The notes beneath the pieces were generated by a model that saw only the letters and a program-made list of their open reading frames with translations, was not told where the DNA came from and ran no database searches. From a virus, in the IMG/VR virus record IMGVR_UViG_3300027631_000037, positions 1-46,874 of that record: 46,874 nucleotides of DNA, one strand, 5' to 3'. The position numbers and the translations under genes were made by a program. This document shows positions 939-36,204 of the stretch, in pieces. Numbering within the stretch: the stretch's first letter is position 1; every line of letters begins with the position of its first letter.

Positions 939-1883
939 ATGGCAGAAGTTTTTGTTCCCTTAAATCGATTCCAGTCAGTAGTAACAGGACTGACTGGTGA
1001 GCAAGATGAAATATATGCAACACCGGCAGGAGTATCATCAATTGTGTTATCTTGTCAAATTACAAATAATAGTTTGATAACACAACCTGTAACTATATTT
1101 GTAACATCAAATAAAGAAATACCTGTACCTGAATTTGGTAATGTATATAGTGGTAGTTCTTTTATAAGTGCCTCCGCCGGTCCTTTTGCTGTTAATGGAA
1201 TTGAAACTTTGACTAGATTTAGTGGTAGTTTTGCTAGTGCATCTTTATTATTAAATTCAAATAGACAATTTTTAAGAAAAGAAATAGCAGCATATACTAA
1301 TAATCAAAATAGTTTATCAGAAACCCCATTTACATTTATATCATCATACTTTGAACAAAACACATTAGATGATGTAGATGCAATAAAATATGATATAGCT
1401 AATAATACAACAATTAGAACAAATAAAGCAGCAAAAGCTTATTTTGATAAAAATGGTGTATCTGCAATTGATACAACAGAATATTCTGCATCTATATTTG
1501 CTTTAGATTATTTAAAAGTATTATCAAATCAAATTATAAAAAATCAATCTGTAACTGGTTCAGAAGCTTCTCCATTATTATTTCAAGCTGGAGTTACGCA
1601 ATCCATATTAAGTGGATTTACAAATGGAACACAATCAGGAATATCAGCATCTATATATGTAGTAAATTCTTTAGTAGATGTTATCAAAGCTACAATTGAA
1701 TCTCCTGTACTTGTTGAACAAAACGCTGTAAGATTAGTGACAAACGTAACAATCCCTCCTGCTGATTCACTTTCACCGGTAGTTTCTGGTAAATTAGTAT
1801 TAGAAGAAACCTATGGATTTATTGTATCTGGCTCAACTGAATTAACTGTAGTTCTTTCCTTGTTAGAAAGTGCGAATGAATAA
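939..1883 (+). CDS. Putative virion structural protein
   Basis: A 314-residue protein starting MAEVFVPLNRFQ, with an A-rich leader (aaaaagaa) before the ATG. The N-terminal 100 residues are predicted beta-rich (TGLTGEQDEIYATPAGVSS...), a pattern I associate with small decoration or fibre-connector proteins of marine T4-like phages. The middle is more charged and helical, and the C-terminus is again beta-rich. No catalytic motif or signal peptide is seen. It follows the previous structural gene by 25 bp and precedes the giant fibre, so co-expression with the adhesion apparatus is likely. Function is inferred only from composition and position. Confidence 0.6.
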   Translation: MAEVFVPLNRFQSVVTGLTGEQDEIYATPAGVSSIVLSCQITNNSLITQPVTIFVTSNKEIPVPEFGNVYSGSSFISASAGPFAVNGIETLTRFSGSFASASLLLNSNRQFLRKEIAAYTNNQNSLSETPFTFISSYFEQNTLDDVDAIKYDIANNTTIRTNKAAKAYFDKNGVSAIDTTEYSASIFALDYLKVLSNQIIKNQSVTGSEASPLLFQAGVTQSILSGFTNGTQSGISASIYVVNSLVDVIKATIESPVLVEQNAVRLVTNVTIPPADSLSPVVSGKLVLEETYGFIVSGSTELTVVLSLLESANE

Positions 1884-1887
1884 CAAT

Positions 1888-1906
1888 AATATCATTGATT
1901 GATATT
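1888..1906. repeat. Short inverted repeat after the structural gene
   Basis: AATATCA and TGATATT form a 7-bp hairpin with a 5-base loop just after the stop at 1883. It overlaps the first late-promoter-like motif. It could be a weak terminator or an operator, but there is no following T run. Confidence 0.3.
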
Positions 1907-1930
1907 TATAAGGGATTCTCTATATTTATA
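1902..1930 (+). promoter_or_regulatory. Double late-promoter-like motif ATATTTATA
   Basis: ATATTTATA occurs at 1902-1910 and again at 1922-1930, exactly 20 bp apart. The second copy ends 20 bp before the ATG of the giant fibre gene. The same 9-mer precedes most transcription units in this window. Assignment as a promoter is inferred from recurrence and spacing. Confidence 0.55.
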
Positions 1931-1950
1931 ACAAAGCTGGAAAGTAACGC

Positions 1951-4900
1951 ATGGCAATAAGTAATCTATTAACGGGTAGGGTAAGGGTTGTAAACCCAAA
2001 AAATGTAACATCTGATAGGTATCAATTCTTGGATTTATCTCAAGCAGAGCCGAATTTAGGTGTTCCTAATTTTTCTGCTTCGTTATTAACAAATCCTGCT
2101 ATTGTAGTTTCCGATGACCAAGGTAATAGAGGATTTGCAAGAACAATTAGTTTAGATGAAATATCAGGTTCATTTAGTGGTTCATTTCAAGGTAATGGTT
2201 CTAACTTAACAAATTTACCTGTAGCTCCTTTTATAGCATCTGGTTCAGGAACAGCATCTTTTGTAGATGGAAATTTAAATATAAATACCAATACATTAAT
2301 TGATGGTAATTTATATGTAAGTGAAACTATATTTGCTGAGCAATTATTAGTTTCTTATATATCATCATCTATAATTTATTCATCTGGTTCAAATAAATTT
2401 GGAGATGAAATTACTGATAGACAAGAATTTACAGGTTCGGTTGAAATTAGAGATAGAATCGGTGCAAATGCAATAACAGCATCATCTATAACTGCATCAT
2501 TCACTGGTTCATTTTTTGGAGATGCTAGAGATTTATTTAATTTACCTCAAGCTACTAGATTAGCAAGTGGTAGTGTAACTGCGTCGGTTTCTCCTGATAT
2601 TGGATTTCAAGTAATTTCAGTAGTAAGCGGTTCTACATTTACTGGAAGTTTATTTGTAAGTGGAAATGTTGTAATACCATCTGGTTCTGGGTTTTTTAGT
2701 GGTAGTGGTGAGGGATTATTTAATATTCCACTATCTGCTCTTAATATTGATTCATTAGTATCAACTAGAATAGCTAGTGGAAGTGTAACTGCTTCAATTG
2801 CACCAAATACTGGTTTGGTAGTTAATACAACAATAACCGCATCAATGTATTCTGGTTCTGGTAGAGGATTATTTGATATTCCTTTAAATGCACTATCGCA
2901 GGAAGCAAACAGAATAGCATCTGGTAGTGTGACTGCATCTGTATCACCTAATAATGGATTTGTAGTAATATCACAAGTAAGTGGAAGTCAGTTTTACGGA
3001 AATGTATTTGTAAATAGTGGTTCGTATTTTACTGGTAGTGGAGCGGGATTATCAAATATACCTCGTTCAGCAATTACGGAAGATTCGAATAGAATATCAT
3101 CTGGGTCTGCAACGGCATCTATATCTCCTGATTTTGGTTTGGTAGTAACATCAAAATCGGGTTCTAAATTTGATTCAACTTTATTTGTAACTGGAGGATA
3201 TACTGATGTTAGTGGGTCTGGTGATATAATTTCAATTAGTGCGTATGGTTCAATTTATTTATACACTGGTTCTTATTCTGGTAGTGGTAGATTACTTAGA
3301 GATATTCCATTAGATGCAATTAAAGATTTAGACCTTTCAAAAATTGGTAGTGGTTCTGTAACAGGATCTATAAGTCCTGATTATGGTTTTAGAGTAAATA
3401 CATTTTCTGAAATTAGTGGTAGTTTAATAGTATCATCTTCAGCCGTAGAAATCGCAACCTCATCATTAACAACTGTATTTAATGTTATTAATATTGGGAT
3501 ATCTGCTTGGAATGTAAATGGGCAAGGAAATCCTGCATTAGATTTGGTAAGAGGGGTTGATTATACTTTTAATATCAATGCATCGGGTCATCCTTTCTAT
3601 TTAAAAATAACAAGTTCATTGGGTACTGGTGACCAATATTCGGATGGTGTAGCTAATAATGGAACTGATAATGGTATCCTTACATTTACTCCACCAACGG
3701 GTTCTCCTGATAGATTATATTATGTAGACCCAGACCACGATACAATGATTGGTACTGTTATATTACATGATGTATTAACAAGACCTTCTCAAATTAAATT
3801 TATTGGAGATACTACTATAACAGGTAGTTTATTTGTAAAAGATAGAATTGAAGCTAGAGAAATAAGTGCATCATTTAGCGGTAGTGGTAAAAATTTATTT
3901 GATATTCCACAATCTGCATTATCTGGAGATTCGGCTCGTATTGCTAGTGGTAGTGTAACGGCATCAGTTTCACCTAATACTGGATTTGTAGTTACTTCTG
4001 TTGATTCTGGTAGTATATTTAGTGGTAGTGTATATCTATCATCTGGTTCATTCTTTAGTGGTAGTGGTGAGGGTTTATTTAATATTCCTAGAACAGCTTT
4101 TAGTGGAGATACTCCTAGAATTGCAAGTGGTTCTATAACTGCATCTGTAAGTCCTGATTTTGGATTTAAAGTTGAAGCATCTGAAGTAGGTTCTCAATTT
4201 ACCGGAAGTGTTAATATGAGCCAATCTTTAACGGTTGGTGGTGTAATTAGTGGAGATGGTAGTGGGATTACAAATATTAATTTATCTAATTTATCATTTG
4301 AAGCTACTAGAATTGCAAGTGGTAGTATAACTGCCTCTGTAAGTCCTAATTTTGGATTAAAAGTTGAATCTTGGAATAGTGGTTCTCAATTTACTGGTTC
4401 ATTATTTGTAAGTGGTGGTAGGGGTGTTGAGATAACATCTGGTTCATCTTTTTCTGGTAGTGGTGCAAAATTATTTGATATTCCATTATCAGCATTATCT
4501 GATTTAGACCTTTCAAAAATATTTTCAGGTTCAGCAACGGCATCTATTGCACCAAATACTGGATTTGTAGTAAATACATTTTCAACATTTCAATTTCCTA
4601 TATCAGCTTCAATGTTTAGTGGTAGTGGTAAAGGATTATTTGATATTCCATTCACATCTTTAACTGGTGATTCACCTCGTATTGCTAGTGGTAGTGCCAC
4701 TGCATCCATTTCTCCAAATTTAGGAATGGTGGTTAATACAAGAATAACCGCATCCTCTTTTAGTGGTAGTGGTGAGGGATTGTTTAACATTCCACAATCG
4801 GCATTATCATCCGAAGTATTTAGAATATCTAGTGGTAGTGTAACGGCATCGGTAGATCCTGTTTATGGATTTAGAGTAGAAGCTGGAGTGTTAGGTTCTG

Positions 4901-35726: not shown

Positions 35727-35758
35727 TTTGGTAGTTTAACAAATTATTCGTATATTTA
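35727..35758 (+). promoter_or_regulatory. Bacteroidetes-type promoter for the tmRNA
   Basis: TTTG at 35727-35730, a 20-bp spacer, and TATATTTA at 35751-35758, 13 bp before the predicted tmRNA 5' end. It matches the Bacteroidetes TTTG/TAnnTTTG consensus apart from the last base. The -33 element overlaps the stop codon region of the previous gene. Confidence 0.7.
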
Positions 35759-35771
35759 CATAAACAAACTT

Positions 35772-36154
35772 GGGGGTGCCTTGGAATTGATTGTGATGAG
35801 AATAGTAGTATCACACGTAGACAGAAGTGCTAGATGTCTTTAAATCTGTACAAAACAATAACTGACGTAGAATTATCTACTTGGACCTACGAAGACTTAA
35901 TGTCTTTCATGGGTGCTGACTTAGCAATAGCTGCATAGTCCCTCCCGTATCACTCATGGGAATGAAATAGAAGTGAACAAAACGGAGTTTTACATATCGG
36001 CTCCCTAAATCTGATAAGTTGGTGGAATTGCTGAATTAACCATTCGGCCCCAATTATTTTGGAAAGTTAATAAGATTAAACTTTATCCTAAACGTGTAAT
36101 TCGTTGGTATTACGATTACTTTGCAAGACATGGGTTCGAATCCCATCACCTCCA
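35772..36154 (+). ncRNA. ssrA: Transfer-messenger RNA (tmRNA)
   Basis: A 383-nt one-piece tmRNA. The acceptor stem pairs GGGGGTG (35772-35778) with CACCTCC (36147-36153) over 7 bp, with a G.U at the third pair, the alanine identity signal. A74-type discriminator follows; CCA is not encoded. The T arm is ATGGG-TTCGAAT-CCCAT (36130-36146). The 5' part TTGGAATTGATTGTG fits the reduced D-loop of tmRNAs. Around the resume site the sequence TTTAAATCTGTA...AACT resembles Bacteroides tmRNA. The tag frame is read as starting at GAC 35864 and ends at TAG 35936-35938. tmRNA with SmpB rescues stalled ribosomes and tags products for proteolysis. It has its own promoter and terminator. Phage tmRNAs are known but uncommon. 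Confidence 0.95.
35864..35938 (+). other. Predicted tmRNA proteolysis-tag reading frame
   Basis: From GAC 35864 the frame has 24 codons, starting DVELSTW and ending GADLAIAA, then TAG. The resume codon was placed by aligning the flanking AAC..T.[AT]CTG[AG]C with my memory of Bacteroides tmRNA, where the tag starts GE. A later start is possible, which would shorten the tag. The end of the frame is firm. Confidence 0.65.
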
Positions 36155-36158
36155 CAAT

Positions 36159-36195
36159 AATCCCGAACTATATTTGGTAGTTTGGGATTTTTTTT
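36159..36195 (+). terminator. Intrinsic terminator of the tmRNA
   Basis: A 12-bp stem, AATCCCGAACTA (36159-36170) with TAGTTTGGGATT (36178-36189), one G.T pair, a 7-base loop, and eight T at 36188-36195. The loop contains the -33 element of the next promoter. Confidence 0.9.
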
Positions 36196-36204
36196 GTATA
36201 TTTG
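36173..36204 (+). promoter_or_regulatory. Bacteroidetes-type promoter for the polymerase-like gene
   Basis: TTTG at 36173-36176, a 20-bp spacer, and TATATTTG at 36197-36204, a perfect match to the consensus. The expected transcription start is within a few bases of the ATG at 36210, so the message would be leaderless or nearly so. Confidence 0.75.

Follow-up and report, generated by a model that had tools for sequence, protein, structure and literature searches.

The tmRNA gene and its surroundings

The window, meaning the whole stretch of DNA that was analysed, is a 46.9 kb piece of a contractile-tailed phage, as seen from its tail sheath gene and its viral record. The source phage is large and of freshwater type, and its host is very probably a member of the Bacteroidota. 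A one-piece tmRNA gene (ssrA) lies on the plus strand at 35772..36155 as called by ARAGORN and from the sequence, or 35772-36157 as matched by Rfam RF00023. The RF00023 covariance model was matched over its full length (model positions 1-374) with a score of 73.1 bits (cut-off 47), and 35772-36157 is a real one-piece tmRNA. It is flanked by a 126-residue ORF on one side and a DNA-polymerase-like gene on the other. The polymerase-like gene is adjoined on its 3′ side by a DNA/RNA non-specific endonuclease gene (PF01223; 37536-38138), and relatives of this endonuclease are found near the tmRNA in contigs L202, L204 and L429, where the other genes of the window have no match.

The tRNA-like domain is of the alanine type, with a 7 bp acceptor stem (GGGGGUG/CACCUCC) carrying G3-U70 and the T arm GGGTTCGAATCCC; the T arm and 3′ acceptor strand, as matched by Rfam, occupy 36127..36154 (+). 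In contrast to many relatives, the 3′ CCA is incompletely encoded (A CAA). Pseudoknot PK1, drawn by hand at 35819..35851 (+), consists of the stems AGACA/UGUCU and GUGC/GUAC and ends 12 nt 5′ of the resume codon. In the covariation analysis of PK1, 76 % of cells were paired and 19 double changes were seen vs 8.3 after shuffling, with one clade misaligned by a base. Three further probable pseudoknots on the same strand were drawn by hand from the sequence, namely PK2 (UCCC/GGGA and UCACU/AGUGA; 35939..35976), PK3 (GGAG/CUCC and UAUCGG/CUGAUA; 35984..36016) and PK4 (UGGU/ACCA and GCUGA/UCGGC; 36019..36048). Two related tmRNAs, in L030 (5505-5937) and L053 (4382-4803), have about 40 additional bases in the PK2-PK3 region, and these include the T-arm-like sequence GGTGTGATTCGAACACACC.

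An intrinsic terminator with a 13-pair stem and a T run stands immediately 3′ of the tmRNA (36159..36196, +; one found, 0.4 expected). On the 5′ side, comparison with the Bacteroidetes consensus TTTG / TAnnTTTG points to a putative promoter at 35727..35758 (+), made up of TTTG (35727-35730), a 20 nt spacer and TATATTTA (35751-35758). A consensus scan also returned TTGGTA-17-TATATT at 35728, the number of such matches being no higher than in shuffled sequences. The promoter-like site has a near-twin of the same Bacteroidetes type at 36173-36204; both include TTTGGTAGTTT, followed by TATATTTA in one and TATATTTG in the other. One lies 5′ of the tmRNA and the other within the terminator region, 5′ of the polymerase-like gene.

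The tag reading frame and the resume codon

The tag reading frame, DVELSTWTYEDLMSFMGADLAIAA, occupies 35864..35938 (+), from the resume codon GAC (35864-35866) to the stop codon TAG (35936-35938), and was assigned from the sequence, its conservation and the resume anchor. The codons are GAC GTA GAA TTA TCT ACT TGG ACC TAC GAA GAC TTA ATG TCT followed by TTC ATG GGT GCT GAC TTA GCA ATA GCT GCA TAG, i.e. 24 codons and a stop. The preliminary description had predicted a tag of 24 residues ending LAIAA in this position, and the interval holds exactly 25 codons including TAG.

Directly 5′ of the frame is the resume anchor AAACAAUAACU (35853..35863, +), which contains the SmpB-contact stretch (-6 to +1) and was recognized through scans of bacterial tmRNAs. 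The upstream anchor AAACAATAACT has the same position in tmRNAs of bacteria (for the most part Bacteroidota), whose 9-residue tags follow it. In 52 bacterial tmRNAs called by ARAGORN, AAACAATAA[C/A]T is directly 5′ of the resume codon (GGC GAA...) and PK1 is about 12 nt upstream; because these loci were retrieved using AAACAATAA[A/C]T plus GGCGAA, identity of the letters there is by design and the position is the finding. An unrelated 3′-end pattern also brought up Bacteroidota tmRNAs in which Asp is the first residue of the tag (DNNYSYRLAA). In the phage relatives, the anchor stretch is at the equivalent place, before GAC or GCA. As the anchor and PK1 of the window are placed as in bacteria, with the resume signal (-6 to +1) 10-12 nt past PK1 and an in-frame tag ending hydrophobic-A-A (AIAA), and as the frame evolves like coding sequence 5′ of 35912, GAC 35864 was taken as the resume codon.

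Resumption at GGT 35912, which the preliminary description had named as something that would refute a long tag, would give a tag of eight residues, GADLAIAA, similar in length and end to bacterial GExxYALAA tags. We regard this as highly improbable. PK1 and the SmpB-contact stretch stand directly before 35864 and are finished by 35863, the residues encoded 5′ of 35912 are conserved as peptide, and the G of GAD is missing in some relatives (ESF/NSF).

The tag that ARAGORN reports for the window, VNKTEFYISAP, was rejected as a miscall read inside the pseudoknot region. Many family members are miscalled in the same way; the wrong tags (VNK..., EQPQLYLSAV) found in the window and in L004, L012, L032, L033 and L040 all come from this region. 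Automatic tag annotation can thus be unreliable for phage tmRNAs.

Conservation among phages and comparison with bacteria

The polymerase-like neighbour was used to retrieve 78 related viral contigs, and in 70 of them a long tag (23-26 residues) is present at the same place in a tmRNA. Among the other eight, the contig start falls at or within the polymerase gene in five, and the anchor used gave no call in three. Examples of the tags in relatives are DVELSTWTFDDVMAFVGADYAVAA, DEMSTMTFDSMMEFIGASEYAYAA and ADVELSTMTFGDAMAWMESFDYAVAA. Scanning with the alignment of tags, without regard to synteny, detected relatives in 255 viral contigs; the best 80 of these were checked and the tag was in a tmRNA context in every one, many of the fetched stretches being without similarity to the genes of the window. 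The motif occurs once per genome, in the tmRNA, in all 18 large contigs (132-274 kb). Conservation at the same place in 70/78 contigs, together with a location in tmRNAs in 80/80, is far beyond chance, with the proviso that related sequences share ancestry and the counts are therefore not independent events. Within the family, E, S, M and three A of the C-terminal region are invariant, and D is nearly so.

A scan of 85 000 bacterial and archaeal species, each represented by one genome, gave chance matches only, and there were no matches in 395 Bacteroidota genomes, a search that had no bacterial positive control but used a query identical to the one that works in phages. The possibility that the host has the same tag, raised in the preliminary description, thus finds no counterpart in the bacterial genomes searched. 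The tag was also not found among 50 697 phage records, and no near DNA relatives of the window were found among annotated phages. Within the collections searched, this tag family is restricted to phages.

Bacterial controls examined with the 3′-end pattern and tool also used for the viral sample below had tags of 9-14 residues in 29/29 callable Bacteroidota tmRNAs, and the commonest published tag length is 10 (PMC11915505). The earlier statement that the tag is much longer than those of Bacteroidota therefore stands (24 vs 9-10 residues, with one control at 14). One-piece tmRNAs of Bacteroidota (tags GENNYALAA, GESTYAMAA, DNNYSYRLAA) share with the window the tRNA-like domain, the placement of PK1, the anchor AAACAAUAA[C/A]U, the A-A end and, in some cases, Asp as the first residue. 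However, their tags of 9-10 (one 14) residues do not include the VELST extension, and there is no space for inserted hairpins between the resume codon and helix H5.

Hairpins within the frame and selection on the peptide

In most sequences, the frame folds as three successive hairpins, A, B and C. Hairpin A (GUAGA-AUUA-UCUAC; 35867..35880, +) was paired in 99.4 % of cells, two of its five pairs have double changes, and its stem in relatives is, for example, GAAGA/UCUUC or GUUGA/UCAAC. Hairpin B (35885..35914, +) is predicted by folding, with a pairing register that differs among relatives. Hairpin C (35918..35940, +; inner pairs GCA/UGC) is supported by folding and covariation and sits at the canonical position of helix H5; A and B are additions. 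In hairpin C, the last Asp codon is paired to the stop codon (GAC/TAG in the window) and, because of this pairing, GAT is mostly found with TAA and GAC with TAG. Hairpins A and C covary, with 24 double-change cells vs 7.5 after shuffling (0/500 shuffles) and a sharp drop when the pairing is slid. Relative to random synonymous recodings, the coding RNA is more stable, with a mean z of -1.76 and 29 of 34 values below -1. The hairpins probably serve to compact the long coding loop, which lies between PK1 and PK2.

The amino acids of the frame are also constrained. In 52 distinct 17-codon alignments, the tag frame gave a pN/pS of 0.32, against 1.38 and 2.04 for the remaining two frames, values that are a rough measure only because RNA folding and peptide selection share bases. 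In the 12-codon core of the extension, entropy by codon position was 5.0, 4.1 and 10.3 (permutation p 0.0006), and pairs of extension cores differing by one base included 16 synonymous and 5 nonsynonymous differences, where about 20-23 % synonymous would be expected. From the codon-position entropy, pN/pS and the synonymous excess, we infer that the extension is translated and that its amino acids matter; judging by these substitution patterns, the extension, about 16 N-terminal residues, is selected as a peptide. An amphipathic helix in the extension was also considered, but the hydrophobic moment was not above that of shuffled sequences and the idea was dropped.

These data also bear on whether the RNA structure, two hairpins plus H5, is the selected feature and the extra residues a by-product. 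The covariation of A and C, on one occasion at the cost of amino acids (a double change that preserves the stem of hairpin A yet alters VELST to EELSS), and folding in excess of synonymous recodings would fit such an explanation. However, additional selection on the peptide is visible in the codon-position pattern and pN/pS, and in hairpin B the amino acids are kept while the pairing register shifts. We consider it distinctly improbable that structure was the sole target.

Long tags in other phages

Tags of other phage tmRNAs were compared using a viral sample of 119 contigs among the matches listed for a tmRNA 3′-end pattern, and two more families of long tags, besides several singletons, were found. 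The family of the window accounts for at least 21 of the 119 listed contigs. A regular expression assigns at least 32 to a second family, G[N/E/D][V/T]xxx[M/L]xxxGL..., with 20-22 residues, to which L417 and L491 also belong. Its codon-position bias is 19.2, 13.5 and 26.3, and the contrast in pN/pS is weaker (0.65, 0.81 and 1.10). A recurrent mid-frame hairpin was observed in members with GN[TV]xxKMxxLGL...V[AV]A (L385, L388, L400, L404, L407, L431 and others), and the phages of this second family are unrelated to the window at the tmRNA locus. The third family, [G/D]NxFxVSENF..., of about 25 residues, has at least eight members among the matches listed. Long singletons are L380 (30 residues), L403 (25), L420 (26), L442 (21), L446 (17) and also L477. 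At least nine tags among the 119 listed matches have 9-15 residues, and many of the remaining matches are other RNAs or incomplete. As a few families dominate, the sample speaks to recurrence and not to frequency.

Long tags were also read by hand from the resume anchor in two huge phages. In LR756508 (484 kb), the tmRNA at 1501-1947 of L372 encodes a tag of 36 residues, GVNNADYESAGFTAEDFAQMDGESLYHGSERKPAAV, and in LR756504 (636 kb), the tmRNA at 1857-1501 (-) of L374 encodes one of 24 residues, DNVNSFEQSILNELFAPVEMAVAA.

Phage-encoded tmRNAs are known from Bacillus phage G, mycobacteriophages, huge phages (Al-Shayeb 2020) and Melnitz-like methylophages. Ten were listed in 2014 (PMC4131195), by 2022 a tmRNA was recorded in 402 of 18 146 phage genomes (PMC9004378), and huge phages carry both tmRNAs and SmpB (PMC7162821). 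The tag of phage G has 13 residues, AKLNITNNELQVA; a tag expected for mycobacteriophage Bxz1 was looked for, not found and left out of the comparison. Phage tmRNAs have usually been regarded as copies of those of the host, whereas here the tag itself has been rewritten and is two to three times as long; besides the family of the window, there are no fewer than two other families of long tags, unrelated in sequence. No report of the tag family of the window, of its internal hairpins or of recurrent long phage tags was found in the open-access literature. Hundreds of phages, both related to this one and not, have long tags, which suggests that a basic quality-control signal of bacteria has been re-engineered by viruses.

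A proposed two-part tag

The preliminary description had pointed to the LAIAA ending as well as to the length, with weaker recognition by ClpX as a possible result of the changed tag. Neither a decisive role of the ending nor weaker recognition through it was borne out, as the ends in relatives vary freely (LAVAA, YAVAA, YALAA, YAIAA, YAYAA) while A-x-A-A, in the form A[VILY]AA, is kept throughout. On this comparison, LAIAA is one of several interchangeable ends and not unusual. AVAA-type ends also occur in alphaproteobacterial tags. The signal for ClpX and ClpA is described in a review as a C-terminal ALAA (PMC3985003), and nothing in the analysis points to A-I-A-A being a poor one. What truly sets this tag apart is its conserved N-terminal extension, about 16 residues long.

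We favour, with a probability of roughly 0.6, a functional phage tmRNA that works with the SmpB of the host and has a two-part tag, an ordinary degron preceded by an extension that would serve as a second contact point for a protease or adaptor. The tmRNA would be charged with alanine, bound by host SmpB and, given its intact anatomy, able to enter ribosomes stalled on broken mRNAs. Translation would resume at GAC 35864, adding Ala and the 24-residue tag. The C-terminal part, A-[V/I/L]-A-A, would be a degron of the ordinary type readable by ClpX/ClpA, with degradation proceeding via the C-terminus. The N-terminal part, the conserved, phage-specific x-VELST-W/M-TFEDxM-A/S-F-V-G, may offer a host protease or adaptor this further point of contact, and the outcome would be reliable removal of rescued products during infection.

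The second contact is proposed by analogy with Mycoplasma and Mesoplasma, in which Lon is described as reading an extended tmRNA tag (Gur and Sauer 2008; Ge and Karzai 2009; as cited in PMC11986505 and PMC3985003). The Mycoplasma tag has more than 20 residues with conserved upstream residues, as does the phage tag with its 24 residues and conserved extension, and it exemplifies an extension through which a protease engages the tag at more than one site. Mycoplasma tags, whose hosts lack ClpXP, end AFA (PMC3985003), whereas A-x-A-A is retained in the phage tag, and no sequence similarity between the two is claimed. Tagged products may also be redirected to another protease or adaptor, as the preliminary description proposed.

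Neither SmpB nor Lon was encoded in any of the 18 large relatives, and among SmpB, Lon, ClpP-like proteases and Clp unfoldases no phage-encoded partner constantly accompanies the tag in these 18. The SmpB of the host is therefore the likely partner and, with no phage protease consistently linked, a host protease or adaptor is likelier than a phage one.

Two other roles for the extension were weighed. It may be a longer flexible lead that gives an AAA+ protease a grip on tightly folded or assembled phage proteins, so that length and not sequence is what counts. Long tags of unrelated sequence recur in several phage families, all with a small hydrophobic C-terminus, as would be expected, but within each family the sequence is conserved besides the length (in that of the window, invariant E, S, M and three A, and pN/pS of 0.32), and we think this explanation unlikely. 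The extension could instead be an address for a phage or host protein, serving sequestration, signalling or amino-acid recycling, with AA as a residual degron. Such a role, to which we give slightly less credence still, would agree with sequence-specific conservation in phages only, in the collections searched, and with a single motif per phage genome; the family-invariant C-terminal A-x-A-A argues for continued proteolysis, and a consistent partner gene was not found in the 18 relatives.

The two-part tag may be an instance of something wider, in which tailed phages have repeatedly evolved long, family-specific tags whose upstream segment hands rescued proteins over, during infection, to another protease or adaptor or to a phage factor. 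We advance this viral take-over of the tag code tentatively, and with less conviction than the two-part tag itself. Should the extension prove to have a receptor of its own, the handling of rescued proteins would be under phage control, and Bacteroidota proteases and adaptors could be probed with these tags as they stand. To our knowledge, tag recognition in this group has been little studied.

Clp-like genes in large relatives

A ClpP-like protease of about 180 aa (PF00574, 97 bits) is encoded about 4 kb from the long-tag tmRNA in 4 of the 18 large relatives, at 1498-2040 (-) in L242 and also in L240, L241 and L243. A strong ClpC/A-like unfoldase was found in 1 of the 18 relatives. A ClpA/ClpC-like unfoldase of 663 residues, apparently missing the adaptor-binding N domain, is encoded at 1183-3174 (-) of L244, in a 217 kb relative of L227 whose tag is DNKSTWTFEDAMSFVGADLAVAA.
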